The position numbers and the translations under genes were made by a program. A stretch of 22,377 bases of DNA from a virus. Within the stretch, counting starts at the first letter, position 1. Every line of letters starts with the position of its first letter. The notes beneath the pieces were generated by a model that saw nothing but the letters and a program-made list of their open reading frames with translations, was not told the origin of the DNA and did not search any database. Below are positions 5,129 to 22,158 of the stretch, piece by piece. Location of the stretch: IMG/VR virus record IMGVR_UViG_3300030329_001012, positions 1 to 22,377 of that record. One strand, written 5' to 3'.

Positions 5129-6434
5129 GGATTTCGCAAGAAAGGCAATCCCATTTATCAAAGACGAGTATTTTCAAGACGGTATTGAGAAAGTTATTTT
5201 TCAAACCATCTTAGACTATACCAATAATTATTCAGTAAATCCTACAATCGAAGCTCTGAGTATTGATGTCCAGAAGAAGTCATTAAACGAAGAACAATTC
5301 AAACAAGCAGTAGGGTATCTGTCAGAGATAGAGAAAACAGATACAGACCTTCAGTGGTTACTCGACCAAACAGAACAGTGGTGTAAAGATAAGGCAATCT
5401 ATAATGCCATCCTTAATGGTATTCATATCATTGAAGGCAAAGATAAAGAACAAACACCAGATGCACTTCCGACTATTCTTTCGGAAGCATTATCAGTTTC
5501 GTTTGATACGAACATCGGTCACGACTATATGGAACAGTCGGAAGACCGATATGAATTCTATCATACGAAAGAAGAAAAGATACCATTTGATTTAGATTTC
5601 TTTAATCGTATCACCAAAGGTGGTATGCCAAACAAAACTCTGAACATTGCACTTGCAGGTACAGGTGTAGGTAAGTCATTGTTTATGTGCCATGTCGCAG
5701 CATCGACTTTGATGCAGGGTAAGAATGTTTTGTATATCACATTAGAGATGGCAGAAGAAAAGATTGCAGAACGCATCGATGCTAATCTGATGAACATCAC
5801 AATGGATGATATGCACGATCTACCAAGGCATATGTACGAGAACAAGTTTGAGAAGATACAAAAGAAAACACAAGGCAAACTGATCGTCAAAGAATACCCA
5901 ACAGCATCTGCACACTGTGGTCATTTTCGATCCTTGTTAAATGAACTCAATTTGAAAAAAGACTTTATGCCAGAAATAGTATTCATTGATTATCTAAACA
6001 TCTGTGCATCAAGTAGGTTTCGTGCAGGAGCAAATGTAAACTCATATACATACATCAAGGCCATCGCAGAAGAACTTAGAGGTCTTGCAGTTGAATATGA
6101 TCTACCTATCGTGTCAGCAACACAGACAACCAGAACTGGGTTTGTATCGACAGACATTGGTCTAGAAGATACATCCGAATCGTTTGGTTTGCCAGCAACA
6201 GCAGACTTTATGTTTGCACTGATATCGTCAGAAGAACTAGAGCAGTTGAATCAGATGTTGGTCAAACAGTTGAAGAACAGATATGCAGACCCAACATCAA
6301 ACAAAAAGTTTATCATTGGTGTAGATAGAGCCAAGATGAAACTGTATGATGTGGCACAAACAGCACAAGAAGATTTGGTAGATACAGGACAAGAGGAAGA
6401 AGCCATTGACCGATTCGCAGACTTCAAAGTTTAG
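5076..6434 (+). CDS. 41: DnaB-family replicative helicase, T4 gp41-like
   Basis: This 452-residue protein matches the T4 gp41/DnaB layout. An N-terminal helical domain (about 1-140) is followed by a RecA-like ATPase with Walker A AGTGVGKS at 194-201 and Walker B IVFIDYLN with Asp at 305. The TLEMAEEKIAERI segment (222-234) matches the conserved DnaB helix after the Walker A strand, and SATQTTR lies downstream in the H3 position. Length is close to T4 gp41 (about 475). It should unwind the fork ahead of the polymerase encoded at the left edge. The start lies within the preceding small gene, with an overlap of about 50 bases. Confidence 0.95.
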   Translation: MTKLRLEQTILSNLIHNEDFARKAIPFIKDEYFQDGIEKVIFQTILDYTNNYSVNPTIEALSIDVQKKSLNEEQFKQAVGYLSEIEKTDTDLQWLLDQTEQWCKDKAIYNAILNGIHIIEGKDKEQTPDALPTILSEALSVSFDTNIGHDYMEQSEDRYEFYHTKEEKIPFDLDFFNRITKGGMPNKTLNIALAGTGVGKSLFMCHVAASTLMQGKNVLYITLEMAEEKIAERIDANLMNITMDDMHDLPRHMYENKFEKIQKKTQGKLIVKEYPTASAHCGHFRSLLNELNLKKDFMPEIVFIDYLNICASSRFRAGANVNSYTYIKAIAEELRGLAVEYDLPIVSATQTTRTGFVSTDIGLEDTSESFGLPATADFMFALISSEELEQLNQMLVKQLKNRYADPTSNKKFIIGVDRAKMKLYDVAQTAQEDLVDTGQEEEAIDRFADFKV

Positions 6435-7236
6435 AGAAATAAAGTATGAAAAATTCTATACTCCCTGGCAAACAGCACACGAACTCTATGATAGAACTCT
6501 ACTCATAGTCGGCAATCTCTTTGATAACTTTGTAGAGCCATCAGCAGGCAGAGGAGCATTTCTTTCTGCCATGCCACCAAACAAAAGAATTGGTATTGAC
6601 ATAGACATGGCCAGTTGGGGCTATGGTAAGATATGCCAAGAGATAGAGATACAAAATTTCTTTGACTTTATTTGGCCTGAAGGTAGAACGATTACAATAG
6701 GTAATCCTCCCTTTGGTCGTCGTGGTAAGTTGGCAATGAAGTTTCTTAACATCAGTGCTGAGAACTCTGATGTTGTTGCGTTCATACTTCCTGCTATCTT
6801 TTCCAAGTTTACCTTTATCAATAGAGTACATCCATACTTCCATTTGATACACGAAACTCCTGTCACAGAGTTTGAGGACAATGTAAAGGTAAAGTGTGTT
6901 TTTCAAATATGGGAAAGACGAGCACATAAACGAGAGAGAATAGTTAGACAGTCATCGTGCGATGAGTTTACTATGACACATCGACACATTTCTCGTACCA
7001 CACCAGAAGAACTAGAACAACTAAAACAAGATAGTACAGTTGCCATACAACAGATTGGTGGTAGAGTGATACCATTAGAAGAAATAAAGAGAGGTAGTAT
7101 TTGGTTTATCAAAGGCGGTGATCCAGAAGCGTTCAAAAGAATAGACTATTCACATCTACATAAACATCATTTAGGTGCCATTTCTTTGACAAAGGCGGAT
7201 ATTGTTGAGGGATATTTGAATACGATAAAGAGATAA
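6406..7236 (+). CDS. Probable N6-adenine DNA methyltransferase
   Basis: This 276-residue protein has a SAM-binding motif I (VEPSAGRGAF, 43-52), an acidic residue pair after the second strand (GIDID, 63-67) and the catalytic NPPFG motif at 100-104. The motif I then NPPF order is that of amino-methyltransferases, most often N6-adenine enzymes, though NPPF alone does not exclude other targets such as tRNA, rRNA or N5-glutamine. The start is a TTG inside the helicase 3' end, preceded by GAGGAAG. The first in-frame ATG falls after motif I, so a non-ATG start is required. The C-terminal third (about 165-276) is unrecognised. With the C5 methyltransferase, the phage may modify its DNA at two bases. 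Confidence 0.82.
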   Translation: MTDSQTSKFREIKYEKFYTPWQTAHELYDRTLLIVGNLFDNFVEPSAGRGAFLSAMPPNKRIGIDIDMASWGYGKICQEIEIQNFFDFIWPEGRTITIGNPPFGRRGKLAMKFLNISAENSDVVAFILPAIFSKFTFINRVHPYFHLIHETPVTEFEDNVKVKCVFQIWERRAHKRERIVRQSSCDEFTMTHRHISRTTPEELEQLKQDSTVAIQQIGGRVIPLEEIKRGSIWFIKGGDPEAFKRIDYSHLHKHHLGAISLTKADIVEGYLNTIKR

Positions 7237-7239
7237 ATA
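7232..7239 (+). promoter_or_regulatory. T4-like late promoter box (GATAAATA)
   Basis: The sequence GATAAATA differs at one base from the T4 late consensus TATAAATA. It overlaps the stop codon of the methyltransferase gene (7234-7236). It sits at the boundary between replication genes and virion genes, where a late promoter is expected. With the T4 spacing (box about -13 to -6), transcription would start at 7245, the first base of the next gene's ATG. A weak AAAGAG at 7227-7232 could serve as ribosome binding site on read-through transcripts. The box is short, so chance occurrence is possible. Confidence 0.5.
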
Positions 7240-7244
7240 GTATT

Positions 7245-7267
7245 ATGAAAACTTTTAAAGAACATCT
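7245..7267 (+). repeat. Direct repeat at the start of paralogous gene 1
   Basis: The first 17 bases of this gene are identical to the first 17 bases of the gene at 8384, and 22 of the first 23 match. Because the encoded MKTFKEHL segment is under selection, this may reflect gene duplication plus constraint rather than an active recombination site. Confidence 0.6.
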
Positions 7268-8375
7268 GCTTCTTGCAGAAGCAAAAAATCGTGGCGAGGA
7301 AATGGAAGATGTTATCATTGCCGCGGCAGAAGGGAAAAAATATAAACCAATCAAAAGAAAAGATAATCAAATTCCCCCTGATGCAGGTAAGAAGATTGTA
7401 AAGAAAATGAAGTACGGGAAGTTTAAAGGAAAACCAGGAGGACAACCAATTTCAAAAGAATGGGCCAAGGCTTTGGAAGATGCTGGTTCAAAAACAGCTG
7501 GACAAAATAAAGAATCTAAAACTGATTTGATTTTTGGTAGAAAAAGAATATCGCTAAAGACTGGTAAGACAGCTTTTATAACCAACTCAAATGCCGTTGA
7601 GGCTAGGGTTATACTATATTTTGCTGCAAAGGGAGCTCGTATTTCTCCTAAACCAGAAGTTAAAAGATTGGCAAACACAGTTAAGAAGATGCATAAGGCA
7701 AAGTTAGATCCAGGCAAATTGCCCCCAAGGTGGAAAGATAAGGATGGTGTATGGCACAAAACCTCTGAGAAACCACCAACAGATTCCACAATTCGGAATA
7801 CAGCAGTTGCAAAAAATTCTGAGATGGGTATTGAAGCACATAAACTTAGAGATAAACTTCAAACTGATATTGACAAATTATTCCAAGGTAATGACCAGTT
7901 TGCTATTGCCTATGTTAAAGAAGGAATGTCTGGAGAAAGAAAATTTGGTAATGGTCCTGGTACTGCTGAATTTTGTTTAGTGACAGATGCCAATGGAGAT
8001 AATCCAGTAGAACATAATATCTTAAAGGATAAATCTTATCTAAAGAAAATTGCTGGTAGAACTAAAATGGTTGTTAGACTTAGAGCCTTTCAACAAGGAA
8101 AGAAAGAAGAAAGACGATTTGCTTGGCATCATATGTGGTTTGCACAAACCAAGTTTGTAAATGAGCAAGTAGAAAAATTAGAAAGGGAATCTCATTTATT
8201 AACTGAAGCAGCTATTATGGATAGAATAAAGAGTATCTATAATAAAGTTGTAAGGTTTTTAGAAAGAGCTCTTGATAAGATGATAGAATTTATCGGTGAT
8301 AGTTGGGAAAGATTTGAGGAGTTTATGGGATTTCGATTCGACGTAGACTTTAATAATGAAATAAGGTTTGACTAA
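7245..8375 (+). CDS. Capsid-targeted protein with PD-(D/E)xK nuclease-like motifs, copy 1
   Basis: This 376-residue protein begins MKTFKEHLLLAEA, which resembles the T4 internal-protein capsid targeting sequence (from memory, MKTYQEFIAE) and ends in an L-A-E site (10-12) suited to prohead protease cleavage. The core holds a helix with acidic residues (EEMEDVIIAAA), then KTDLIFG with D94 and RISLK (102-105). This E...D...(S)xK pattern resembles PD-(D/E)xK nucleases. It is a paralogue of the next gene; both share a later block (EGMSGERKFG and VTDANGD, near 226-252). A second L-T-E site at 319-321 precedes a basic amphipathic tail. The inferred role is a protein packaged in the head and injected with DNA. 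Nuclease activity is inference from motifs only. The DNA looks more AT-rich than copy 2. Confidence 0.75.
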   Translation: MKTFKEHLLLAEAKNRGEEMEDVIIAAAEGKKYKPIKRKDNQIPPDAGKKIVKKMKYGKFKGKPGGQPISKEWAKALEDAGSKTAGQNKESKTDLIFGRKRISLKTGKTAFITNSNAVEARVILYFAAKGARISPKPEVKRLANTVKKMHKAKLDPGKLPPRWKDKDGVWHKTSEKPPTDSTIRNTAVAKNSEMGIEAHKLRDKLQTDIDKLFQGNDQFAIAYVKEGMSGERKFGNGPGTAEFCLVTDANGDNPVEHNILKDKSYLKKIAGRTKMVVRLRAFQQGKKEERRFAWHHMWFAQTKFVNEQVEKLERESHLLTEAAIMDRIKSIYNKVVRFLERALDKMIEFIGDSWERFEEFMGFRFDVDFNNEIRFD

Positions 8376-8383
8376 GGAGTAAT

Positions 8384-8406
8384 ATGAAAACTTTTAAAGA
8401 GCATCT
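8384..8406 (+). repeat. Direct repeat at the start of paralogous gene 2
   Basis: This is the second copy of the repeat at 7245-7267; see that entry. The two copies are 1139 bases apart, the length of one gene unit, which fits tandem gene duplication. Confidence 0.6.
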
Positions 8407-9451
8407 ATTAACTGAGGCCGCAACATCTGCAGCGTTTGAGATGGAAAGTGTCATCGTGGCAGCTGCCGGCGGTCCAGCATATAAACCCAAGGACAAGAAG
8501 ATTGCCCCAGATGCAGGTAAAAAGATTGTCAAGAATTTGAAACTAAAAGGCAAGGGTGCAATGCCCAAGAACGCCTACGATGTCACACCAGAGTGGGCAT
8601 CATACTTCCCCGGTGGTAAAGCACCAGGTGCTACCAAAACTCCTAAGACAGATTTTCTCATTGGTGATAAAAGAATATCACTAAAGACGGGTAGTGGTGC
8701 TCAGTTGATGAGTGGTGGTAAGTCAGAAGCAACAGCAACATTCTATGCTGCAACTAAGGCAGGTAAGATACCTATCAAAGGTGCCATCAAGAAGTTGGAA
8801 AAACATTTCAACTCTATGATGACCACAACAGTTCCTAAAGTTCAAGGCAATGCCGCAGAGTTAGTTAAGAACAGAAAGTCTAAGATCATTAATGAGACTA
8901 ATAAAGTCCATGAAGAATTTAAGAAAGACCTTCGGACTATGTTCTCTAAAGATAAAAACTTTGCTTATCACTTTACCTTTGAGGCCATGACTGGTGTTCA
9001 GAAGTTTGGTCGTAAGGGTGTAGGGGCCGCACAGTATTTTCTAGTCACAGACTGGGCAGGAGACAAGGCAAGTATACACGATGCCTTTAAACAGAAAGGA
9101 TATGTAAAGAAGATTGCAAGTCAGGTAGTTCCCGAAGCAAGATTCAAGTCGGGGTCACAAAAGAAGATGGATCCCAAAACAAGAATCACAAAGAAAACAG
9201 GATTCTATTCTATTTACAGTGCAGTGGGTCTTGGTCTAAAAAATATGCAGGAAGAAATAGAAGCCATCGAAGGCGATCTACTTACAGAGGCAGTTCTAGA
9301 TAAAATTAAAAATGCCTTCAACAAGTTCAAAAACTACATCAAGAAAATGTGGTCAAGGGTTAGAGAGTACATCGGAGATAGTTGGGATAGGCTCATACAG
9401 TTCTTAGAACTAGAAGCAGAAGTAAGTTTCAATAACAACATTAGTTGGTAG
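8384..9451 (+). CDS. Capsid-targeted protein with PD-(D/E)xK nuclease-like motifs, copy 2
   Basis: This 355-residue protein begins MKTFKEHLLTEAA, with a capsid-targeting-like segment and an L-T-E cleavage site at 9-11. It parallels the preceding gene. It has an acidic helix (FEMESVIVAAAGG), APDAGKKIVK, then KTDFLIG with D90 and RISLK (98-101), followed by GAQLMSGGKSEATATFYAA. The D...SLK arrangement with an upstream Glu helix is consistent with a PD-(D/E)xK fold in which Ser replaces the usual acidic residue. A second L-T-E at 300-302 precedes an amphipathic tail containing YIGDSWDRL, matching FIGDSWERF in copy 1. A clear AAGGAG ribosome binding site lies upstream. Similar proteins occur, to my memory, in marine T4-like phages as hypotheticals. 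Confidence 0.76.
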   Translation: MKTFKEHLLTEAATSAAFEMESVIVAAAGGPAYKPKDKKIAPDAGKKIVKNLKLKGKGAMPKNAYDVTPEWASYFPGGKAPGATKTPKTDFLIGDKRISLKTGSGAQLMSGGKSEATATFYAATKAGKIPIKGAIKKLEKHFNSMMTTTVPKVQGNAAELVKNRKSKIINETNKVHEEFKKDLRTMFSKDKNFAYHFTFEAMTGVQKFGRKGVGAAQYFLVTDWAGDKASIHDAFKQKGYVKKIASQVVPEARFKSGSQKKMDPKTRITKKTGFYSIYSAVGLGLKNMQEEIEAIEGDLLTEAVLDKIKNAFNKFKNYIKKMWSRVREYIGDSWDRLIQFLELEAEVSFNNNISW

Positions 9452-9454
9452 ATT

Positions 9455-10693
9455 ATGAACAACTTTGGTCAATTTCTTACCGAAGATAAGAACACACACC
9501 TTGAACATTTGGAAGATGAGATTCTAAATGATGGTGTGACTGGTGGCAAGAACGCCATATCCTTTTTATTGGCTCTAAGTGATATGCTACAGGGTCACAG
9601 TAAGAGTAAAACAAATGTGACCGTGAAGTGGGATGGTGCTCCTGCTATCTTTGCAGGCACGAACCCAGAGAACGGAAAGTTCTTTGTTGGAACGAAAGCA
9701 GTATTCAATAAGATTGGTGGACGAGTAGGACCAAAGATAAACTACACACCAGCAGATATCAGAAAGAATCATGGCGGTGGACTCGCAGACAAACTTTTAG
9801 CTGCTCTAAAATATTTCCCTGCACTAAAGATTCCTGGCATCTGGCAAGGTGATCTACTGTACACACAGGACGATCTAAAGACAGCAGAGGTTGGCGGTGA
9901 TACTTCTGTTATTTTTACACCTAACACAATCACATATGCAGTACCACTGATAGATGAACTTGCTAATACAATTCAAGCAGCAAAGATTGGAGTAGTCTGG
10001 CACACATCATACAGTGGTAAGAAGATGGATTCTCTCAAGGCTAAGTTTGGGGTCAATGCAAGTCAGTTAGCCAAGTCACGAAACGTCTGGTCGATTGATG
10101 CAACCTTTAAAGACACATCGGGTAATGTGAAATTCACTGCTGCCGAAGCTAAACAGTTTCAGAAAGTATTGAACATGGCATCAGGTTCTCTAAAAAGGTC
10201 CTCTAACTACCTACGAATGATGGACAAAGTTACGCACGCTGAGGCCCCATCTAACCTTCTCAAAATATTCCTCAACTCATATATTAGGGGTGGAGAGAAG
10301 ATAGAAAACACAAAGAAAGTGGTAGATTTTTTCGGGAAATACTATGAGGAACGCCTGAATAAGAAGATAAAAAGTGTCAAAAGTGCCGCTGGAAGAGAGA
10401 AGTGGGAACAGATCAAGAAGGATGGACTTTCCGAATATAATAAATACAAGAAAGATTTGTATTATGTTGTTGCAACATACATAACTTTACAAACTGCTAA
10501 GACTCTAATCATCAGAAAGTTAGAGAGGGCAGAGAACATAGGTACATTTATCCAAACTCCCAATGGTTACAGAGTAACAGCACCAGAAGGTTTTGTTGCT
10601 ATTGATCGTATTGGTAAAGCAACAAAACTAGTAGATCGACTTGAGTTTAGTCGTGCTAATTTCCAAGTAGATAAGAATTGGGTCAAAGGATAA
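9455..10693 (+). CDS. Capsid-targeted DUF6267-like protein with KWDG motif
   Basis: This 412-residue protein begins MNNFGQFLTED, again a capsid-targeting-like segment with L-T-E at 8-10. It resembles a conserved marine phage family that I recall as DUF6267. The notable block is VTVKWDGAPAIF (55-66), where K58-W-D60-G61 matches motif I (KxDG) of ATP-dependent DNA and RNA ligases and related covalent nucleotidyltransferases. FFVGTKAVFNK follows, then GIWQGDLLYT (128-137) near the place of motif III and IGVVWHT (178-184) near motif IV, although the motif IV Glu is not evident. It could be an injected ligase-like enzyme or a catalytically altered relative. The C-terminal half is helical and Lys-rich. 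Family membership is likely; enzymatic activity is a hypothesis. Confidence 0.78.
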   Translation: MNNFGQFLTEDKNTHLEHLEDEILNDGVTGGKNAISFLLALSDMLQGHSKSKTNVTVKWDGAPAIFAGTNPENGKFFVGTKAVFNKIGGRVGPKINYTPADIRKNHGGGLADKLLAALKYFPALKIPGIWQGDLLYTQDDLKTAEVGGDTSVIFTPNTITYAVPLIDELANTIQAAKIGVVWHTSYSGKKMDSLKAKFGVNASQLAKSRNVWSIDATFKDTSGNVKFTAAEAKQFQKVLNMASGSLKRSSNYLRMMDKVTHAEAPSNLLKIFLNSYIRGGEKIENTKKVVDFFGKYYEERLNKKIKSVKSAAGREKWEQIKKDGLSEYNKYKKDLYYVVATYITLQTAKTLIIRKLERAENIGTFIQTPNGYRVTAPEGFVAIDRIGKATKLVDRLEFSRANFQVDKNWVKG

Positions 10694-10708
10694 CATGGAG
10701 AACGAACT

Positions 10709-10984
10709 ATGGAATGGAGTGGTAGCACAGTAGCTCTTGGAGTGTTTCTAACCACGCAGTTAGGTGCTGCTGTGTGGTGGGCATCAGAAACAGATACCAA
10801 GTTAAATGCTACACAGGATACAGTTACTAAGGTTGTCGAGAACGCAACTGACATTGCAGTAATACAAAACGATGTTATTACCATCAAAGAGATGATGGAA
10901 GAAAATGAAGAACGAGTCGAAGAACTCCGAGAGATGATGCATCAAATTTTATATACTTACCGAAACGCAGCTGAAGTAGAATAA
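10709..10984 (+). CDS. Small membrane protein with cytoplasmic or periplasmic coiled coil
   Basis: This 91-residue protein has one hydrophobic segment at about residues 7-23 followed by a predicted coiled coil rich in Glu, Val and Met (about 32-80). A GGAG sequence at 10697-10700 serves as ribosome binding site. Its stop overlaps the start of the next gene (TAATG). No family is recognised. It resembles in layout the small membrane proteins at 19247 and 19898. Holin-like or virion-associated membrane roles are possible, but the sequence does not decide. Confidence 0.68.
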   Translation: MEWSGSTVALGVFLTTQLGAAVWWASETDTKLNATQDTVTKVVENATDIAVIQNDVITIKEMMEENEERVEELREMMHQILYTYRNAAEVE

Positions 10985-12204
10985 TGGCAAAGACTATATC
11001 ATTTACGTTTGGGAGATTCAATCCACCAACTATCGGTCACGAAAAGTTGATGGATCAAACTCGTAAGGCAAATAGAAACTATCGTATCTATGCGAGTCAG
11101 TCACAGGACTCTAAGAAGAATCCCCTAGACTTCAAAACTAAAACAACCTTTATGAAGGCTATGTTTCCTGTTCATGCAAGAAGCATATCAACAGATAAGG
11201 TTGTAACTCCATTCGACATTCTAACAAACCTTTACAAAGAAAAATATACAGATGTGATTATGGTTGTTGGTTCAGACCGAGTCGAGGAGTTTGAGAAAAA
11301 ATTAACCCCGTATAATGGTAAGAAGGCAAGACACGGATATTTCAAATTCAATTCTATCAAAGTTGTAAGTGCCGGCGAAAGAGATCCAGATGCAGAAGGT
11401 GTATCTGGTATGTCTGCATCTAAGATGAGAAAGGCCGCACAAGACAACGATTATGATTCGTTTGCCAAAGGTCTACCAAGAAAATTCAAACAAGGTAAGA
11501 TGTTATTCAAAACTCTACAGAAGACAATGGGTGTCAAGACTCTAAAAGAATACATTGAAGAATCTAAGGTATCCAGACAAGAATTTCAAAGGAGACTAAA
11601 GAATAAACAAAAAAAGAGAGGTTATCATAAACTTTCACCTCAAGACCCTAAGTCAAAGGTCGTAGTAGGCTATCCAAAAGGAACTTCTATAGGTAAAAGA
11701 AAAGAAACTCAACCCGATATGTCCGATGTCGGTGGCGGTAAAGTGGATGTAAAGGCCTACAGAAAAAAACATGGTATGGGTGAAGAATCCGAGATAGAAG
11801 AAGGTCGTCCCAATCAAGCAGCAAAGTCATTATCTGATCCTAAGTTCAGAGCCAAGACTGAGAAAGATAGAAAGAAGGCATCGAAGAAAGGATACCAGAA
11901 ACATAAAGGTAGAATGTACGAGGATGGAAAGGTAATGACATTCAAACAAGCTCAAGAAAAAGATAAGAAGGACCAGAACAAAGACCCTGTTGGTCCTCAA
12001 CACGAAGGTATCCTAGATACTTTATTCCCTAAACAACTATCCGCAGCACAGAAAAGAATCTACAAAAAAGAATATGCTGCCGCATCTAGACTGTATCAAC
12101 AGTTAATTAAGCGTGGTGATAAACCTGCTGTGGCACTACATAAGGCGGCTAGTTCAGTCAAACACGTCACGGATCGTGGCCTCCAACAGTATTTAAAAGT
12201 ATAA
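10984..12204 (+). CDS. NMN-adenylyltransferase-like nucleotidyltransferase with long basic tail
   Basis: Residues 1-160 of this 406-residue protein form a HIGH-superfamily nucleotidyltransferase. GRFNPPTIGH (10-19) is the nucleotide-binding motif, with Thr in place of the first His of HxGH. VVGSDR (94-99) and SASKMR (144-149) match the later conserved motifs. The closest relatives by pattern are NMN/nicotinate and cytidylyl transferases. At 184-193 an internal VKTLKEYIEE resembles a capsid targeting sequence and offers I-E-E as a cleavage site. It sits just after an in-frame ATG at 11527. The remaining 210 residues are Lys-rich low-complexity (about 200-335) and end in a compact helical segment (KQLSAAQKRIY onward). 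The order suggests an enzyme fused to an internal virion protein. The upstream stop overlaps its ATG. Confidence 0.82.
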   Translation: MAKTISFTFGRFNPPTIGHEKLMDQTRKANRNYRIYASQSQDSKKNPLDFKTKTTFMKAMFPVHARSISTDKVVTPFDILTNLYKEKYTDVIMVVGSDRVEEFEKKLTPYNGKKARHGYFKFNSIKVVSAGERDPDAEGVSGMSASKMRKAAQDNDYDSFAKGLPRKFKQGKMLFKTLQKTMGVKTLKEYIEESKVSRQEFQRRLKNKQKKRGYHKLSPQDPKSKVVVGYPKGTSIGKRKETQPDMSDVGGGKVDVKAYRKKHGMGEESEIEEGRPNQAAKSLSDPKFRAKTEKDRKKASKKGYQKHKGRMYEDGKVMTFKQAQEKDKKDQNKDPVGPQHEGILDTLFPKQLSAAQKRIYKKEYAAASRLYQQLIKRGDKPAVALHKAASSVKHVTDRGLQQYLKV

Positions 12205-12207
12205 ATA
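12200..12207 (+). promoter_or_regulatory. T4-like late promoter box (TATAAATA)
   Basis: This is an exact match to the T4 late promoter consensus. It overlaps the stop codon of the preceding gene (12202-12204). At T4 spacing transcription would begin near 12213, leaving a leader of about 63 bases before the virion protein gene at 12276, which has its own ribosome binding site (GAGAGGAAA). Position before two structural genes fits a late promoter. Confidence 0.72.
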
Positions 12208-12275
12208 GTCATACAAATAACAAATATATTATGCCGAGTAGGTGAAGTTATCAACCGAAAAGAGAGGAAATAATA

Positions 12276-12869
12276 ATGTCAGATCCAAGTAGTGCGCATA
12301 AACCAAAATATCTAACAAGTGCGCAGAAAAGAAATGTAGAAATGGGACCCGGTGGTTGGGTTCGCAAACCCGGTGCTGAAATGGGCATCGACGATGCTAA
12401 CGCTGATCCAGAAGTTCTAGTAGCTTTCCGTGGTTCAGGTTCCATCACTGGTTGGATTTCATCCTTCCGTTGGGGTTCAGATACAGTTACATCTAGCACA
12501 AATAGTCTATCTGTTTCTGTTTACTTCAGTGAGAATGTTGATATCACAGGTACGCCTCAGTTGCTCGTCAACTCCACAGGCACAAACACAACACTTGATT
12601 ATGCTTCTGGCACAGGCACAGACGTAATCGTGTTTAGTAAATCAGGTATCGCAGGCAACTTGAGTGCTACTGATATTCTTAATATCAATACAAATGCTAT
12701 CTCGTTGAATGGCGGTACGATCAAAGATGCTGGTACATCCCAGGTAACAACAATCACCAACGTAGCCAACCAAGGCGCACAGGGTGGTGTAGTAACTGGT
12801 GGTAACCGTGCAGCAGCAACAGATACTGCTGAGACAGATGGACCAAGAATCAAAGTAATATTACCATAG
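12276..12869 (+). CDS. Probable virion surface protein with bacterial Ig-like/adhesin domain
   Basis: This 197-residue protein has an N-terminal region (1-50) with GPGGWVRKPG at 24-33, which I associate with marine phage virion proteins. A beta-rich domain at about 78-150 follows, in which SVYFSENVDITGTPQLLVN and DYASGTGTDVIVF match the repeat found in large bacterial adhesins. The tail (165-197) is Gly/Ala/Thr-rich. No signal peptide is present, so the protein is assembled from the cytoplasm, as expected for a head decoration or fibre protein. It follows a perfect late box and a strong ribosome binding site. It may act like T4 Hoc, which also uses Ig-like domains, but that is analogy. Confidence 0.72.
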   Translation: MSDPSSAHKPKYLTSAQKRNVEMGPGGWVRKPGAEMGIDDANADPEVLVAFRGSGSITGWISSFRWGSDTVTSSTNSLSVSVYFSENVDITGTPQLLVNSTGTNTTLDYASGTGTDVIVFSKSGIAGNLSATDILNINTNAISLNGGTIKDAGTSQVTTITNVANQGAQGGVVTGGNRAAATDTAETDGPRIKVILP

Positions 12870-12884
12870 TATGATTTAACGTGA

Positions 12885-12920
12885 TCTATGTATATGCATA
12901 GAGTAGAATTCCCGAAAGGG
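12885..12920 (+). other. Two small hairpins in the leader of the next structural gene
   Basis: TCTATG (12885-12890) and CATAGA (12897-12902) can pair around a six-base loop. CCCGAAAGGG (12911-12920) can form a three-base-pair stem closed by a GAAA tetraloop. They lie just upstream of an AGGAG ribosome binding site (12928-12932). They could stabilise the messenger 5' end or modulate translation. The stems are too short and AT-rich for a convincing terminator, and no late box is seen here. Confidence 0.35.
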
Positions 12921-12941
12921 TTTATATAGGAGAAAAAGAAA

Positions 12942-13442
12942 ATGGCAGATAAGAAAATTACGGCTTTGACCGATCTAGGAACAGGTATCGCTTCGGTAGA
13001 CTTGTTTCATGTAATTGATGACCCATCAGGTACACCTGTAAACAAGAAGGTGAGTGCAGCTAATGTATTCAATAACATTCCATCTTGGCTAGGTCTTAAA
13101 GACACAGCACAGGCCCTAACAGCAGCTGGTGCTGTCAACGTCACATCATCCATCACCAACTTGACACTTGCTGGTACAGCACAGGCTCTAACGCTTGCTG
13201 ACGGTGCCCAGGGTCAGATCAAGATCGTCACTTGTATTGACGGTTCCGGTGCTGGTACAATGACATTGACACCAACTAACCTTGCTGGTGCTTCAACAAT
13301 TGCATTTACACAGGGTACTAACGGTGCCACCATCGCACCTTCTACAGGTGTTGCTGGTACTGGTACAGGTTCCATGTGGATCGGCATCTTCAATAACAGT
13401 GCTTGGCATACAATCTCAGCAGTGGGTGTAACTATTGCTTAA
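12942..13442 (+). CDS. Probable virion structural (decoration or fibre-type) protein
   Basis: This 166-residue protein is rich in Ala, Thr, Gly and Ser and largely beta. It begins [13 protein letters not shown] followed by [15 protein letters not shown], an N-terminal pattern I associate with structural proteins of marine phages. Residues about 60-166 are repetitive (two copies of TAQALT in [12 protein letters not shown] and [12 protein letters not shown]). No signal peptide or membrane segment occurs. A good ribosome binding site is at 12928-12932. Placement next to another structural gene supports a virion role; the exact position on the particle is unknown. Confidence 0.72.
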
Positions 13443-13460
13443 TAGCTAAGGTACTTTATT

Positions 13461-13667
13461 ATGATTACGATTGACAATCTAACCGAAAGGAAGGAAACTG
13501 TTACAGAAGATATCAGAAAAGTTGAAGAAACAATTGCTACCTTGGACGCACAGAGGTCACAGCTACAGGCTAACCTCTATGCGCTCCAAGGTGCATTGCA
13601 ACAGATAGATTTCTTTCTGGAACAAAACGAAGAAACAAAAGAACAACCTAAGGGGAAAACCAAATGA
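13461..13667 (+). CDS. Small coiled-coil protein
   Basis: This 68-residue protein is almost entirely a predicted coiled coil, with heptad-like spacing from about residue 5 to 55 (ETIATLDAQRSQLQANLYALQ) and a charged tail. CTAAGG upstream can serve as ribosome binding site. The stop overlaps the next ATG (ATGA), so it is coupled to the following acidic protein. It may be a scaffold, chaperone or structural accessory for the virion proteins upstream, but there is no family match I recognise. Confidence 0.68.
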   Translation: MITIDNLTERKETVTEDIRKVEETIATLDAQRSQLQANLYALQGALQQIDFFLEQNEETKEQPKGKTK

Positions 13668-13867
13668 GTGATGAAGAAGTAATACGTTATGGTGCTGGAG
13701 GTAAACCTTACAAGGGTACAGTTGGTCCCCAAAGTACAGATGTTGAACCAACACCAGAAGAAGAATCACCTGTCGAAGAACCAAAAGTATCAGTTGAGTT
13801 TGTAGAAGATGATACTCCGGTTACCGACGAAGAAGTAAAAGAAAAAACTAAGAAAGGCGGAAAATAA
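13664..13867 (+). CDS. Small highly acidic protein
   Basis: This 67-residue protein is dominated by Glu, Asp, Pro and Val with a short basic end (KEKTKKGGK). It appears disordered. It overlaps the upstream coiled-coil gene by four bases and is followed two bases later by a capsid-targeted protein gene. Acidic disordered proteins are common in phage heads and as scaffolding parts, but no function can be assigned. Confidence 0.62.
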   Translation: MSDEEVIRYGAGGKPYKGTVGPQSTDVEPTPEEESPVEEPKVSVEFVEDDTPVTDEEVKEKTKKGGK

Positions 13868-13868
13868 A

Positions 13869-14288
13869 ATGAAATCCTACAAACAGTTTGTGTCAGAGGA
13901 TGCCCCAGGATCAAAGGTCGGAAATTCTATTTCTGTAAACCAGACTGGTGGTAGTGACCCCTATGACATTCAGAACGATGACGTACTCAAAAGAGTAAAT
14001 GCTTTCGTCGGTTCTATTGCAGACCGAGAGTATCTTATTCCTGAGAATGCCGTACATCAACTACAGGGATTCTTGGAGAGAATCGGACTATGCTTTGATA
14101 TGCCCGAAGAACTCCCAGAGTCAGGTAATGTCAGTCTACCATTGAAAAGATATGGTGGCGTTTTTGGTAAGGGTACAGATACACCCTTTGATGAGTTTGA
14201 TCGTGAGGAAGGCATTGATAAGAGTTTGAATATTCAAATTGAAGGACTAAGAAATAACTCTTTTAAGGTATATGCTAAGATAGCATAA
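13869..14288 (+). CDS. Capsid-targeted small virion protein, unknown function
   Basis: This 139-residue protein begins MKSYKQFVSEDAPG, which closely parallels the capsid-targeting-like starts at 7245, 8384 and 9455. A V-S-E site at residues 8-10 is a plausible prohead protease cleavage point, although Val in place of Leu or Ile is weaker. The SVNQTGGSDPYDIQNDDVLKR stretch near 25-45 and LPLKRYGGVFG near 90-100 look like folded, conserved segments. I infer a small internal head protein. The next gene starts directly after the stop codon. Confidence 0.7.
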   Translation: MKSYKQFVSEDAPGSKVGNSISVNQTGGSDPYDIQNDDVLKRVNAFVGSIADREYLIPENAVHQLQGFLERIGLCFDMPEELPESGNVSLPLKRYGGVFGKGTDTPFDEFDREEGIDKSLNIQIEGLRNNSFKVYAKIA

Positions 14289-14657
14289 ATGTTTGAAAAA
14301 ATAACTCCGGCGAACTGGCAGATGTTCGCTATGAAACATTATGATAATCCCCAGGCGGATGGCGAAGAGGAGTTTCAAGATGACCTCAAGAGGTTTAAGT
14401 ATCTCAAAAGGTTGTTGAAGAAATATCACGAAGGGGGTGAGTTGAAGGAGAGGTTGATACTGAATCACATTATTGTTTTGACAAATGTGTTTGGTGTTGA
14501 GGCTTCTGTAACTTTATTATTGTTTAAGATTGAACCAGAATACTGGTCGGAGTTAAAAACATTTTTGTTGTATCTAAACATGGTTACTGTATTTGAACCA
14601 GCATTATCAAGAGTTAGACGGGACGAACATATATGGAACACTTTACAAAATATATAG
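14289..14657 (+). CDS. Conserved marine T4-like phage protein, unknown function
   Basis: This 122-residue helical protein starts MFEKITPANWQMFAMKHYDN, followed by FKYLKRLLKKYHEGGELKER and LILNHIIVLTNVFGVEA. I recall this pattern as a short, well conserved protein in marine T4-like phages near internal head proteins, possibly a named DUF, but I cannot confirm the accession. No signal peptide; the hydrophobic helices around 57-85 look amphipathic rather than membrane-spanning. The ATG follows the previous stop directly and the gene overlaps the next by 25 bases, so translation is probably coupled. Confidence 0.7.
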   Translation: MFEKITPANWQMFAMKHYDNPQADGEEEFQDDLKRFKYLKRLLKKYHEGGELKERLILNHIIVLTNVFGVEASVTLLLFKIEPEYWSELKTFLLYLNMVTVFEPALSRVRRDEHIWNTLQNI

Positions 14658-15274
14658 ATGACCATCATCAGTTGTTGGCAGAAGGTCGTGCTATTGATTT
14701 GTTCGTTGCATATCGTTTCTTGAGAATCCTCACAACGCCTTGGGAAGACCAAGATGCATACAAGTTCGGCATCATTGATGATGATGGTAAACTGTTAAGA
14801 AAAGCAAACACGCTTCAAACCGATGAGGAGAAGAAATCATTTACTCTCCTCCATCGGTTAGTGTTTAATCTAAAAAGAATATTAAACAAAATTCCTGGTG
14901 TAAGAACAAAGATTGGAACTTATGCCACTGCTTTGTATCTACTGAAACAAAGTGTTGTCACCGATCAAGAAGAAGGTGACATGATAGAAAAAACATTTGC
15001 AAACTGGTTGATAGACAACGGGTATGCACATCCAGATGACTTGGAAGAATCTGTTATTGGTATTGGAGAAAATCTACCTAAAGGTAAGTACAAACTAATA
15101 CAAGATATCTTTACAGACAAGTCAGAGATAAAAGGTAACAAAGGAGATTTGGTTGTTGCCTTTTCAGACACACCACCAACAGATGAAGTCCTTGGTCAAA
15201 ACATTTTCAAGGTCGTTCATCAAAGATCAAAAGAAGAAATCTATGTAGCCCTAGAGGATTTAGAAGATGCTTAA
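14633..15274 (+). CDS. Probable internal virion protein with L-x-E cleavage site
   Basis: This 213-residue protein starts MEHFTKYIDDHHQLLAEGR. The first part resembles a diverged capsid targeting segment and L-A-E at about 15-17 would be the cleavage site. The block AIDLFVAYRFLRILTTPWED through LLHRLVFNLKRIL (about 20-90) is conserved, as I recall, in marine T4-like phages. The C-terminal part has two small beta-rich sections (ENLPKGKYKLIQDIF and KGDLVVAFSDTPP). No export signal. It sits in the middle of a run of capsid-targeted genes, which supports the same fate. Confidence 0.68.
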   Translation: MEHFTKYIDDHHQLLAEGRAIDLFVAYRFLRILTTPWEDQDAYKFGIIDDDGKLLRKANTLQTDEEKKSFTLLHRLVFNLKRILNKIPGVRTKIGTYATALYLLKQSVVTDQEEGDMIEKTFANWLIDNGYAHPDDLEESVIGIGENLPKGKYKLIQDIFTDKSEIKGNKGDLVVAFSDTPPTDEVLGQNIFKVVHQRSKEEIYVALEDLEDA

Positions 15275-16445
15275 TAAACTAAATACTAGAAAGTATATAT
15301 TAAAAGAAACTGTTACTAAAGAAGAGGCACCAGTCAATTCAGTTGCAGGTGGTGGTGTTGATATGGCCCCAACCGCAAAGGGCACAAAAGTTTTTATGAA
15401 AAGAAATAAACTAGACGGCCGTACGAAAGAATACAGAGAAGCCGCACGACGAATCAAAGAACGCAAGGATAAATTGTATCAAAAAGAAGTACAAGCCAAA
15501 CTAAGTCAGTTTGGTATTGCTGCTATGGAATCAACAACAATGGACAACAACAAATATCTTGACACTAAACCAGGTAGCATTGAAGATGCAGTTCTTCAGG
15601 CTCTCAATCCCAATGCAGAAAAGGAAACTCTAACTCTACCAAAGACTGACGAAGAGGAAGAACTCAAAGAGTATATCAAATCAGACGGGTCACGCAGACG
15701 TTGTGCTGACGGTGACGGGCGTAGAACAAGATCCGAAGATAACACCAACGATGAAGATGATGACGGTGAGGGCCTAGACAAAGTTCAACCTAAGGCACTC
15801 AAGAAGAAGTTTAAAGATCGTAAAGATAAAGACATTGATAACGATGGTGACGAAGATGATTCCGACGAGTATCTACATAAAAAACGTAAAGCAATTTCTG
15901 CCAAGATGAAAGAGAGTAGAAAAACTTTCAAACAGTTTAGATCAGAAGCACACGAAATTGGCACAGACGAGTATGCAAACTACACTAAGGAGATGACTCC
16001 TGGTGAAGCCATCACAAATAAAGATGCACGAAAGGCTGATGCCAATAAGAAAAAAGAACAGGCTGCTCAACAGAATCAGTTGAATGTTGATGAAGAAGAT
16101 GCAAAAGAAGCATTTGCAAATCCACCTGCAGGAATGAAGTTCCCAACCACAGGTGTTAAGAACATGGGTGGTCCAAACAGACGCAAACGAAACCTCGGTG
16201 GTAATAAACGAAAGGGTGATGTTAAGAAGTTTCCTGTTGCCAAGACGGCAGAAGAAAAAGAACTAGACGAACTTAGCAACAAGACGATGGACAGTTATGC
16301 ACAGAAGGCAACTGCATCACAAGCATCTGCTGAGAAGAAAGGTGACTACAAGAAAGCAGACAAAAGAATCGCTGGTAAGTTGAGAGCTACCCGTAGAAAG
16401 TTCAGTAACGATACAAACAGGATTCTACGAGGGTTAAATAAATAA
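15267..16445 (+). CDS. Highly charged low-complexity virion protein with internal capsid-targeting-like motif
   Basis: This 392-residue protein is mostly charged and disordered. It has Lys/Arg-rich stretches, an acidic run (EDNTNDEDDDGEG, near 152-164), and KDKDIDNDGDEDDSDEY (about 187-203). The DIDNDGDEDDSD stretch resembles a calcium-binding loop and, as I recall, recurs in marine phage head proteins. YILKET near residues 11-16 offers a possible L-K-E cleavage site. Internally, KTFKQFRSEAHE (about 219-230) resembles the capsid-targeting starts of neighbouring genes, just after an in-frame ATG (15906). The basic C-terminus could bind packaged DNA. A fusion or polyprotein is plausible. It overlaps the preceding gene by eight bases. 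Confidence 0.72.
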   Translation: MLNKLNTRKYILKETVTKEEAPVNSVAGGGVDMAPTAKGTKVFMKRNKLDGRTKEYREAARRIKERKDKLYQKEVQAKLSQFGIAAMESTTMDNNKYLDTKPGSIEDAVLQALNPNAEKETLTLPKTDEEEELKEYIKSDGSRRRCADGDGRRTRSEDNTNDEDDDGEGLDKVQPKALKKKFKDRKDKDIDNDGDEDDSDEYLHKKRKAISAKMKESRKTFKQFRSEAHEIGTDEYANYTKEMTPGEAITNKDARKADANKKKEQAAQQNQLNVDEEDAKEAFANPPAGMKFPTTGVKNMGGPNRRKRNLGGNKRKGDVKKFPVAKTAEEKELDELSNKTMDSYAQKATASQASAEKKGDYKKADKRIAGKLRATRRKFSNDTNRILRGLNK

Positions 16446-20176: not shown

Positions 20177-20687
20177 AGATTTGTGGTTTGCTGCCATTGG
20201 TGGTGGTGGAATCATTGCATTGTTCATTGGTCTTATGTTCTTTGCTGCAATAAGAGCAACTGCCTCCGAACTTGTACATGAGTTTCATAGTCCATCATTC
20301 AGCGGCATCGGTTGGAGTACGCATATGCTTTCTATTGAACAACTACAACACAATAGAAAAGAAGATATGCGAGAACGAGCAGAGGCCCAAGAAAGAAAAG
20401 AAGAACGTGAAGAAAACAACACGACCATTAATAAGTTTATCAAGAACGTAGAGAGCCGTATCTATGCTAACTTATCAAAACAGTTAGTGGATAATATGTT
20501 TGCCACACCAGATGAAGATTGCGAAGGTGATGAGTGTGATGTTCCACTGACAGGTACGGCAGATGTTGATGGTTCTATTTTAGTATGGACTAAAGACCCT
20601 GATATGGGAACGATTACTTTGGTCATAACAGGAGAAGATGGTACGACAACTACAATGACTGTGCCAGTAGGAGACTTTGGATTTTGA
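20145..20687 (+). CDS. csgF: CsgF-like curli assembly protein
   Basis: This 180-residue protein has an N-terminal hydrophobic segment (13-36) ending in AIRATA-S, a likely signal peptidase site. The new N-terminus, ELVHEFHSPSFSGIG, aligns with the start of mature E. coli CsgF (TFQFRNPNFGGNP), the part that inserts into the CsgG channel. NKFIKNVESRIYANL (96-110) aligns with the CsgF helix DNFTQAIQSQILGGL. The end, GSILVWTKDPDMGTITLVITG then TTTTMTVPV (143-175), aligns with the C-terminal strands. A charged linker (69-92) is longer than in CsgF. CsgF couples the secretion channel to surface fibre nucleation. It precedes a csgG gene, which strongly supports the assignment. Confidence 0.85.
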   Translation: MAKVQKNWTTRDLWFAAIGGGGIIALFIGLMFFAAIRATASELVHEFHSPSFSGIGWSTHMLSIEQLQHNRKEDMRERAEAQERKEEREENNTTINKFIKNVESRIYANLSKQLVDNMFATPDEDCEGDECDVPLTGTADVDGSILVWTKDPDMGTITLVITGEDGTTTTMTVPVGDFGF

Positions 20688-21478
20688 AAAAGATATTATT
20701 ACTGTTGAGTGTTATACTGATTGCTGGTTGTTCAACTAGTAGTAAGCTTATTCTACATGGGTCATTGCCCTATGCAGAAGGAACTCCTACTACTGAGTTG
20801 CTAATGTCAGTTCCAGAGTTAGACCAACCAGTGATAACAATAGCGGTGTATAACTTTCCAGACAGAACAGGACAAAGAAAACCATCAACAAGATTTTCAC
20901 AACTATCAACTGCCGTATCACAGGCACCAGAAACATATCTCATAGATGCGTTGAAGTGTGTCGGTAAAGGCAAATGGTTTACAGTAGTAGAGAGACAAGG
21001 ACTAGACAGTTTAATAAAAGAGAGACAACTAATACGATCAACAAGAGAACAATACGATGGAGATACGAAGTCCGTTTTAAAACCATTACTCTTTGCAGGA
21101 CTTTTAGTAGAAGGTGGAATCGTAAGTTATGATTCCAATGTGATGAGTGGTGGAGAAGGTGCAAGATACTTTGGCATAGGTGCTCATAGAAAGTACCGAA
21201 CAGATCAAGTCACAGTATCATTGCGTATAGTTGCTGTTCAAACAGGTGAGATACTTTTATCAGTATCATCAACTAAAACAATTGCCAGTCAGAAGATAGG
21301 CGGCGATGCCTTTAAGTTTCTAGATTTAGGAACAAAGGCCTTGGAAATAGAAGTAGGTGTAGCTAGAAACGAACCCACTAACTACGCTATCAGAACAGCA
21401 ATAGAGTATAGTGTATTACAGATGATAGAGAAAGGTGAGGCGAAGGGTTTATGGAAATATAAGAAGGAGGTACAATGA
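20684..21478 (+). CDS. csgG: CsgG-like outer-membrane curli secretion channel lipoprotein
   Basis: Translation starts at a TTG overlapping the csgF stop, after AGGAG. The signal peptide ends in lipobox IAGC with Cys 16. The CsgG family signature is strong: ITIAVYNFPDRTGQRKPS (51-68), WFTVVERQGLDSLIKERQLIR (98-118), EGGIVSYDSNVMSGGEGARYFGIG (143-166) and VSLRIVAVQTGEIL (178-191), plus RNEPTNYAIRTAIEY and GLWKY near the end. E. coli CsgG is a nonameric channel that exports curlin. Here the pore-eyelet region reads KPSTRFSQLSTAV (66-78) where E. coli has KPYPASNFSTAV. Length (264) is close to E. coli (277). Assignment is very secure. Confidence 0.93.
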   Translation: MKKILLLLSVILIAGCSTSSKLILHGSLPYAEGTPTTELLMSVPELDQPVITIAVYNFPDRTGQRKPSTRFSQLSTAVSQAPETYLIDALKCVGKGKWFTVVERQGLDSLIKERQLIRSTREQYDGDTKSVLKPLLFAGLLVEGGIVSYDSNVMSGGEGARYFGIGAHRKYRTDQVTVSLRIVAVQTGEILLSVSSTKTIASQKIGGDAFKFLDLGTKALEIEVGVARNEPTNYAIRTAIEYSVLQMIEKGEAKGLWKYKKEVQ

Positions 21479-22158
21479 AAAGGTTATTCTTAGGAATAAT
21501 GATGTTAATGATGATGTCATTTGCTCATGCGAATGATATTTATGTAACACAATCGGGTGCATCTTTAGAGTTGAACATCAAACAAGATGGCACAGACAAC
21601 AAGGTAGGTAACTCTACCACAGCATCAACGGTTACTGGCGCAACAAGTGATATTGATATTGATCAGATAGGTAATACAAACGTATTGACCTTTGATGTCA
21701 ATGGTGCAAGTTTTACTGGTAAGTTTGACGTAACTGGTAATAGTAACAACATTGACTTCAACTGTGATAGTGATGGTTCAGGTTCGTCTTGTGCTACAGC
21801 AACAGCAACTATTGTTTGGATAGGTAGTTCAAACGATATTGATATTGATATCGGTGAAGATGCCGATGCTGCAACTGCGACAGTATCTATTACAGGTGCT
21901 TCAGGTAGTGACAGTAACGTGATTGCTGGTACGATAGATGGTAAGTCTGCTATTCTAACACTAACGGTGAATGGTGATACCAACAACTACTTGATTGATA
22001 TAAATGGAGACGGCGATTCCGCAGGTCATACTTATATCCATACACACGTTGGAAGTATTGCTGATGTTGATGTAACACAGTCGGGTGTCTATGATAACAT
22101 GGTGACACTATCAACAAGTGGAGACAATCACGATATAGATATCAGTCAAACAGACTAA
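21475..22158 (+). CDS. Secreted curlin-like repeat protein, candidate CsgG substrate
   Basis: This 227-residue protein has a signal peptide (1-19, cut after AHA) and a repetitive, Asp/Asn/Gly/Thr-rich body with curlin-like elements: TQSGASLELNIKQDGTDN (25-42), IDIDQIGNTN (60-69), WIGSSNDIDIDIG (115-127) and TQSGVYDN (201-208). The Q-x-G-x-x-N spacing resembles curlin repeats, but the repeats are irregular and highly acidic. DINGDGD (175-181) matches a DxNxDG calcium loop. Two Cys (97, 106) could form a disulphide. A strong AAGGAGG site precedes it, implying high expression. The position directly after csgG, as in curli loci, supports it as the exported subunit. A beta-solenoid virion or adhesin protein remains possible. 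Confidence 0.78.
   Translation: MKRLFLGIMMLMMMSFAHANDIYVTQSGASLELNIKQDGTDNKVGNSTTASTVTGATSDIDIDQIGNTNVLTFDVNGASFTGKFDVTGNSNNIDFNCDSDGSGSSCATATATIVWIGSSNDIDIDIGEDADAATATVSITGASGSDSNVIAGTIDGKSAILTLTVNGDTNNYLIDINGDGDSAGHTYIHTHVGSIADVDVTQSGVYDNMVTLSTSGDNHDIDISQTD

Follow-up and report, generated by a model that had tools for sequence, protein, structure and literature searches.

The capsid-targeting sequence (CTS) of the phage T4 internal proteins IPI, IPII, and IPIII is said to have been described by Mullaney and Black in 1996. Mutational work on IPIII links targeting to residues 4 and 7 and processing to residues 8 and 10; the internal proteins are ejected, as is Alt (PMC9026906). Alt undergoes two cuts, at ITE-6 and at LTE-619, the latter removing 63 C-terminal residues (PMC5694885). 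The mature form of IPI has 76 residues (PMC3012670), which is exactly what a cut after E19 of its 95 residues leaves. Here we describe a comparable set of genes in a 22,377-base contig of a marine T4-type phage (IMG/VR IMGVR_UViG_3300030329_001012, positions 1 to 22,377), the whole of which is hereafter termed the window. Five of its genes, designated by their start positions (7245, 8384, 9455, 13869, and 14633; all features given below lie on the + strand), open with a T4-type CTS ending in (L/I/V)-x-E. We consider it highly likely that these shared starts act as such sequences, and that the proteins bearing them are docked as cargo, cut by a gp21-type protease, and delivered with the DNA.

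The resemblance to T4 is close: IPI, fetched as a control, starts MKTFKEFTSTTTPVSTITE↓A (MKTFKEF...ITE↓A, the arrow marking a known or predicted cut), and IPII and IPIII start MKTYQEFIAE↓A. In gene order, the five window tags have F, F, F, Y, and F at position 4 and H, H, F, F, and Y at position 7, and the P3 residue of the 13869 tag is V. A strict N-terminal pattern matches four of the 32 called open reading frames (7245, 8384, 9455, and 13869), whereas 200 composition-preserving rounds of shuffling of the window proteins average 0.28 matches and never exceed 3. A pattern of this type is found across 80 homologous contigs at 174 starts on the coding strand versus 3 on the other. The earlier note on this DNA had proposed at least four near-identical starts with a diverged fifth at 14633, and a likeness to the T4 internal proteins. 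The starts are present at the genes it named, and the near identity of the IPI start bears out the likeness; the end that it gave for the region, 15323, lies beyond the last tagged gene, which ends at 15274.

The first two cargo genes exemplify the features of the tag. Cargo 1 (7245 to 8375) begins with a predicted propeptide at 7245 to 7280 (MKTFKEHLLLAE) and cargo 2 (8384 to 9451) with one at 8384 to 8416 (MKTFKEHLLTE), Ala following the cut in both. They are paralogues with 38% identity and near-identical first 21 bases. In all 58 distinct proteins of the 8384 family, which come from metagenomic viruses, the N-terminal segment is 10 to 23 residues long and ends in [LI]xE↓[AGSD], one of them having N at P3 (examples are MKTFKQHLTE↓A, MLSFTGYSNLSE↓A, MHKFNEFTEVLAE↓G, and MTIQSFKEYRTNLQE↓A). 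The P1 Glu (column 11) is conserved in 100% of the family alignment, whereas the flanking columns are poorly conserved. A tandem-duplicated tag, MKKFKQYISEQYISE↓A, is seen in L076 from position 5185. The family shows a second site of the same kind: Glu-302 of an LLTE motif, 53 residues before the end, is conserved in 100% of 41 aligned sequences, and [LI]xE occurs within the last 75 residues in 57 of the 58 proteins, mostly 50 to 55 residues from the C-terminus, the 58th being truncated by a contig end. The best reading of this site, by analogy with the T4 Alt cut at LTE-619 (PMC5694885), is that the family probably loses a C-terminal propeptide of 50 to 55 residues; the putative segments are 8208 to 8372, after LLTE-321, in cargo 1 and the 53 residues encoded by 9290 to 9448, after LLTE-302, in cargo 2.

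An AlphaFold2 model of the 8384 protein, predicted from an alignment of the window and fetched-locus proteins (pLDDT 85), has a well-folded body preceded by disordered residues 1 to 13. The family has an invariant KTD-90 ... S-x-K-101 signature (D90, S99, and K101), and the best structural match of the model in the PDB is MspI, a weak one (prob 0.75, E 0.098); together, these make a PD-(D/E)XK-like nuclease fold plausible for both paralogues, as a lead rather than an assignment. Searches recovered no Pfam match for the 7245/8384 proteins and no ADP-ribosyltransferase family match for the 8384 family, and a sequence-profile search of this and the DUF6267 family against the PDB gave no match.

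Cargo 3 (9455 to 10693) is a DUF6267 protein (Pfam E 3.4e-123) with a predicted propeptide at 9455 to 9484 (MNNFGQFLTE). Conservation in its tag peaks at residues 4 (F, 15/22), 7 (F/Y, 17/22), 8 (L/I), and 10 (E, 21/22). These are the very positions tied by IPIII mutation to targeting and processing in T4, as would fit a capsid-targeting propeptide. In the body, the invariant residues are K58, D60, and G61 (KWDG, 58 to 61), E378, G379, and V381 (PEGFV, 377 to 381), and K391. The ATP/NAD-dependent nucleic acid ligase superfamily is characterized by a KxDG motif I, an EGxV motif IV, and a motif V lysine. Fold matches are mostly to DNA and RNA ligases, each of them weak and none with E<0.001; DUF6267 may accordingly be ligase-like, which we again offer as a lead and not as an assignment.

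The remaining tagged genes belong to further families. Cargo 4 (13869 to 14288) encodes a small protein of 139 residues with a predicted propeptide at 13869 to 13898 (MKSYKQFVSE), and its homologues start MKSFNDYISE, MKNFKNHIAE, and MKTFKQHLEE. Cargo 5 (14633 to 15274), of the phrog_18642 family, has a diverged predicted propeptide at 14633 to 14683 (MEHFTKYIDDHHQLLAE), after which the body continues with GRAIDLF, Gly being the residue after the cut. The window and its close relatives have this tag, whereas the Melnitz and HTVC008M homologues, which start MGRAIDLF and MASTAIDAF, are missing precisely that segment. The idea that the bodies are otherwise unrelated thus holds for DUF6267, the 139-residue 13869 family, and phrog_18642, which are all separate, and fails for the paralogues 7245 and 8384. 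Across the homologous loci, the tag occurs on many unrelated families, among them an adenylate kinase (L159, Pfam E 2.9e-44).

The T4-type late-promoter-like GATAAATA (7232 to 7239) lies 5 bases upstream of the first tagged gene, and of 47 distinct homologous loci, 35 have [AC]TAAATA at most 80 nucleotides ahead of the first cargo gene, versus a background of 3%; the signal emerges only across these loci, the motif count within the window alone not being above chance. HTVC008M, Melnitz, and S-CREM2 each encode a gp21-type protease, as do all six searched relative contigs that reach that gene. In the protease of contig G004 (L101) there is an in-frame TAG stop, possibly a sequencing error or else a true interruption. 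The (L/I)-x-E site is also present in the major capsid proteins of most relatives, such as Melnitz (FLSE↓A), S-CREM2 (LLTE↓A), and S-SCSM1 (FLAE↓A).

Virion proteomics of homologues bears on the same question through the NMNAT/cytidylyltransferase gene of the operon (10984 to 12204). Most NMNAT homologues have MK(S/T)F...E directly ahead of the enzyme core; some, including the window copy, are without it. In the window NMNAT and two close relatives, KxLKE(Y/F)IE is instead found behind the enzyme domain (in the window, KTLKEYIEES at residue 185, 11536 to 11565). A position-independent search for the tag gave no clear excess over shuffles in the complete genomes of HTVC008M (15 versus 9.7) and Melnitz (16 versus 8.5), so such internal copies remain tentative. 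The enzyme has been detected by mass spectrometry (MS) in the virions of S-SM1 (PMC3037559), S-SZBM1 (PMC9146016), S-SCSM1 (PMC9602691), and S-CREM2 (PMC10665884), and all four of these versions are tagged (MKKFSAFLNEA in S-SM1, MRFRQFIIEA in S-SZBM1, MKSFLQFLKEA in S-SCSM1, and MKNFSSFLTEA in S-CREM2). By contrast, the untagged NMNAT of S-PM2 went undetected in the S-PM2 proteome (PMC3037559), and the DUF6267 protein of S-SZBM1, also without the tag, is missing from its virion list (PMC9146016). These contrasts between tagged and untagged proteins are concordant but few. In S-SCSM1, six neighboring genes of the same region are listed as virion proteins; gp030 of this phage, an 11-kDa protein, is flanked by two virion proteins.

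The gene order of the window is B-family DNA polymerase, Dcm-like methylase, UvsX, 2OG-Fe oxygenase, gp41 helicase, the tagged operon, and curli-like genes. The same order is seen in Pelagibacter phage HTVC008M and Methylophilales phage Melnitz (both Kyanoviridae) and, in outline, in the cyanophages S-SZBM1, S-SCSM1, and S-SM1, while in S-CREM2 the homologous genes sit between the late sigma factor and primase/nrdA, away from the helicase. The genes at 20684 to 22158 (CsgG, Pfam E 6.7e-54, and curlin-repeat genes) are phage-borne curli secretion genes, likewise present in HTVC008M and Melnitz. The operon also contains a gene for a basic low-complexity protein (15267 to 16445) with an internal tag-like KTFKQFRSEA at residue 219 (15921 to 15950), which we infer from synteny to be cargo. 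In several relatives, small proteins at the end of the operon mimic the post-cleavage N-terminal arm of the major capsid protein (L011:16343-17236, L010:33122-33307, and L192:27806-28354; in S-CREM2, ATGFTGAAAPEGPVAGYDPLM versus ADGFTGAAAPGGPNAGFDPVM of gp23), with local scores of 95, 83, and 62 versus shuffle maxima of 51, 36, and 37; a weaker likeness is seen near the N-terminus of the 15267 protein (EEAPVNSVAGGG, 15321 to 15356). One such mimic, gp160 of S-CREM2, is MS-detected in virions, and this mimicry is possibly a second packaging signal.

These observations can be assembled into a scenario resembling that of T4. Following late transcription, the N-terminal peptide, with its aromatic residues at about positions 4 and 7, would dock each protein on the scaffold core of the prohead before shell closure. 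The gp21-type prohead protease would then cleave after (L/I/V)-x-E and release the protein within the head, probably also removing the C-terminal propeptide of the 7245/8384 family. The released possible nuclease, the ligase-like DUF6267 protein, the small proteins, and, in most relatives, the NMNAT would stay with the DNA and be delivered on infection. The suggestion of the earlier note that the shared start is a packaging tag is largely upheld by the conservation pattern, the T4 controls, the tagged and untagged homologues, the virion proteomics of homologues, and the gp21-type proteases of relatives. For the cargo of the window itself, we infer cleavage, internal location, and injection from this combined evidence.

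Several points weigh against this interpretation. The window, a fragment of 22 kb, contains no head genes, and the MS support comes from the virions of homologues, none of it from this phage. The residue after the predicted cut is Asp in DUF6267 and 13869, whereas T4 has Ala there. For S-PM2, the contrast amounts to one case and comes from a less sensitive proteome. In S-SCSM1, a genome-wide test of tag against MS detection was not significant (2/39 virion proteins versus 6/227 others), which can be attributed to the false positives that the pattern collects among short open reading frames and to the small number of tagged proteins there; gp030 (L187:44215-44535, MKTFKQFMSES), with a perfect tag, is missing from the virion list. 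The cited virion proteomes report no peptides beginning after the predicted cuts. Further, the authors of the S-CREM2 (PMC10665884) and S-SCSM1 (PMC9602691) proteomes warn that such enzymes may be contaminants.

One alternative is that the tag docks these proteins on the scaffold core in the service of head assembly, so that they are packaged and yet not injected. Head assembly is indeed affected by T4 IPIII (PMC9026906), and the cargo families, far from changing fast, are conserved within the group; against this, the bodies resemble enzymes acting on nucleic acids or nucleotides, which suits action in the cell, and the T4 internal proteins and Alt are ejected, leaving this alternative unlikely in our estimate. 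It is far less credible that the shared start serves as a leader that enhances translation or has a regulatory role, or that it was simply inherited through gene duplication, without any connection to packaging. The paralogy of 7245 and 8384 and their near-identical first 21 bases would agree with such an origin, but F4, F/Y7, L/I8, and E10 are kept through changes in both DNA and peptide, and the motif at the end of the tag is that of the capsid protein's own cleavage site. Mere paralogy as the source of the shared start was rejected because unrelated families carry the tag. Finally, the position of the operon downstream of the uvsX/gp41 replication genes, in the window as well as in HTVC008M, Melnitz, S-SZBM1, S-SCSM1, and S-SM1, could hint at an N-terminal docking helix for a complex other than the head, such as a replisome or membrane complex encoded beside the helicase. 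We give this scant credence: a late-promoter motif separates the operon from the replication genes in most relatives, homologues are present in virions, and the S-CREM2 genes are not beside the helicase.

If the tag is a CTS delivering its bearers with the DNA, it lets sequence alone show which proteins marine T4-type phages probably bring into their hosts. It also offers an explanation for the repeated and puzzling detection of NMNAT in cyanophage virions, making the choice between contaminant and cargo a testable one. A speculative extension, which we regard as rather doubtful, is that T4-type marine phages whose hosts are SAR11, methylotrophs, or picocyanobacteria possess a late-expressed operon of swappable cargo, in which the CTS preloads nuclease, nucleic-acid ligase, NMNAT, and adenylate kinase for time zero and internal tags package proteins that have no tag at the N-terminus. 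Were this true, such a time-zero kit might, for example, repair or protect the incoming DNA and restore NAD+ against NAD-depleting defenses. Tag-like starts are also seen away from the families of the window. A RimK-like ATP-grasp protein of Melnitz (L006:82-1128) starts MTQKFSQFITEE outside the cargo operon and is a candidate for injection, after which it would modify ribosomal proteins or others of the host. A Zeta-toxin-like P-loop kinase family has the starts MIPFILKEG and MKFKEFLLQEG (L005:6562-7221 and L150 from 859), with a fusion to NMNAT in L150. PADLOC gave no useful result.

The CTS mechanism is known from T4, and its use in marine phages seems to be undescribed: in a literature search, the sole text joining "capsid targeting" and "cyanophage" was a T4 review, and pelagiphage and DUF6267 terms gave nothing on such cargo. 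In phage P1, DarB likewise has a short N-terminal signal that directs it to the head; unlike the T4-type system, the P1 Dar proteins have no common sequence and P1 seems to be without a separate T4-type scaffold (PMC9024508). The NMNAT/cytidylyltransferase of cyanophage virions (T4-GC190) is of the same enzyme family as that of the window and occupies the same operon position in most genomes; however, the versions MS-detected in four phages have an N-terminal tag, unremarked in the cited papers, whereas the window copy has only the internal tag-like peptide. The 7245/8384 proteins parallel T4 Alt in their predicted propeptides at both ends (N-terminal, 10 to 23 residues; C-terminal, 50 to 55), while differing from it in that the 8384 family has no ADP-ribosyltransferase match and a nuclease-like fold hint. 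With the T4 internal proteins, the window cargo shares the N-terminal propeptide (10 to 19 residues in T4), the aromatic residues at positions 4 and 7, the (L/I)-x-E site, cut by gp21 in T4, and the use of one tag on unrelated bodies. No sequence kinship was seen between the bodies of the two sets, and the window cargo differs in being larger and enzyme-like, in the greater range of tag length (10 to 23), and in lying together downstream of gp41 as a single operon that has a late-promoter motif. The CTS principle established in coliphages would thus be extended to phages of some of the ocean's most abundant bacteria.

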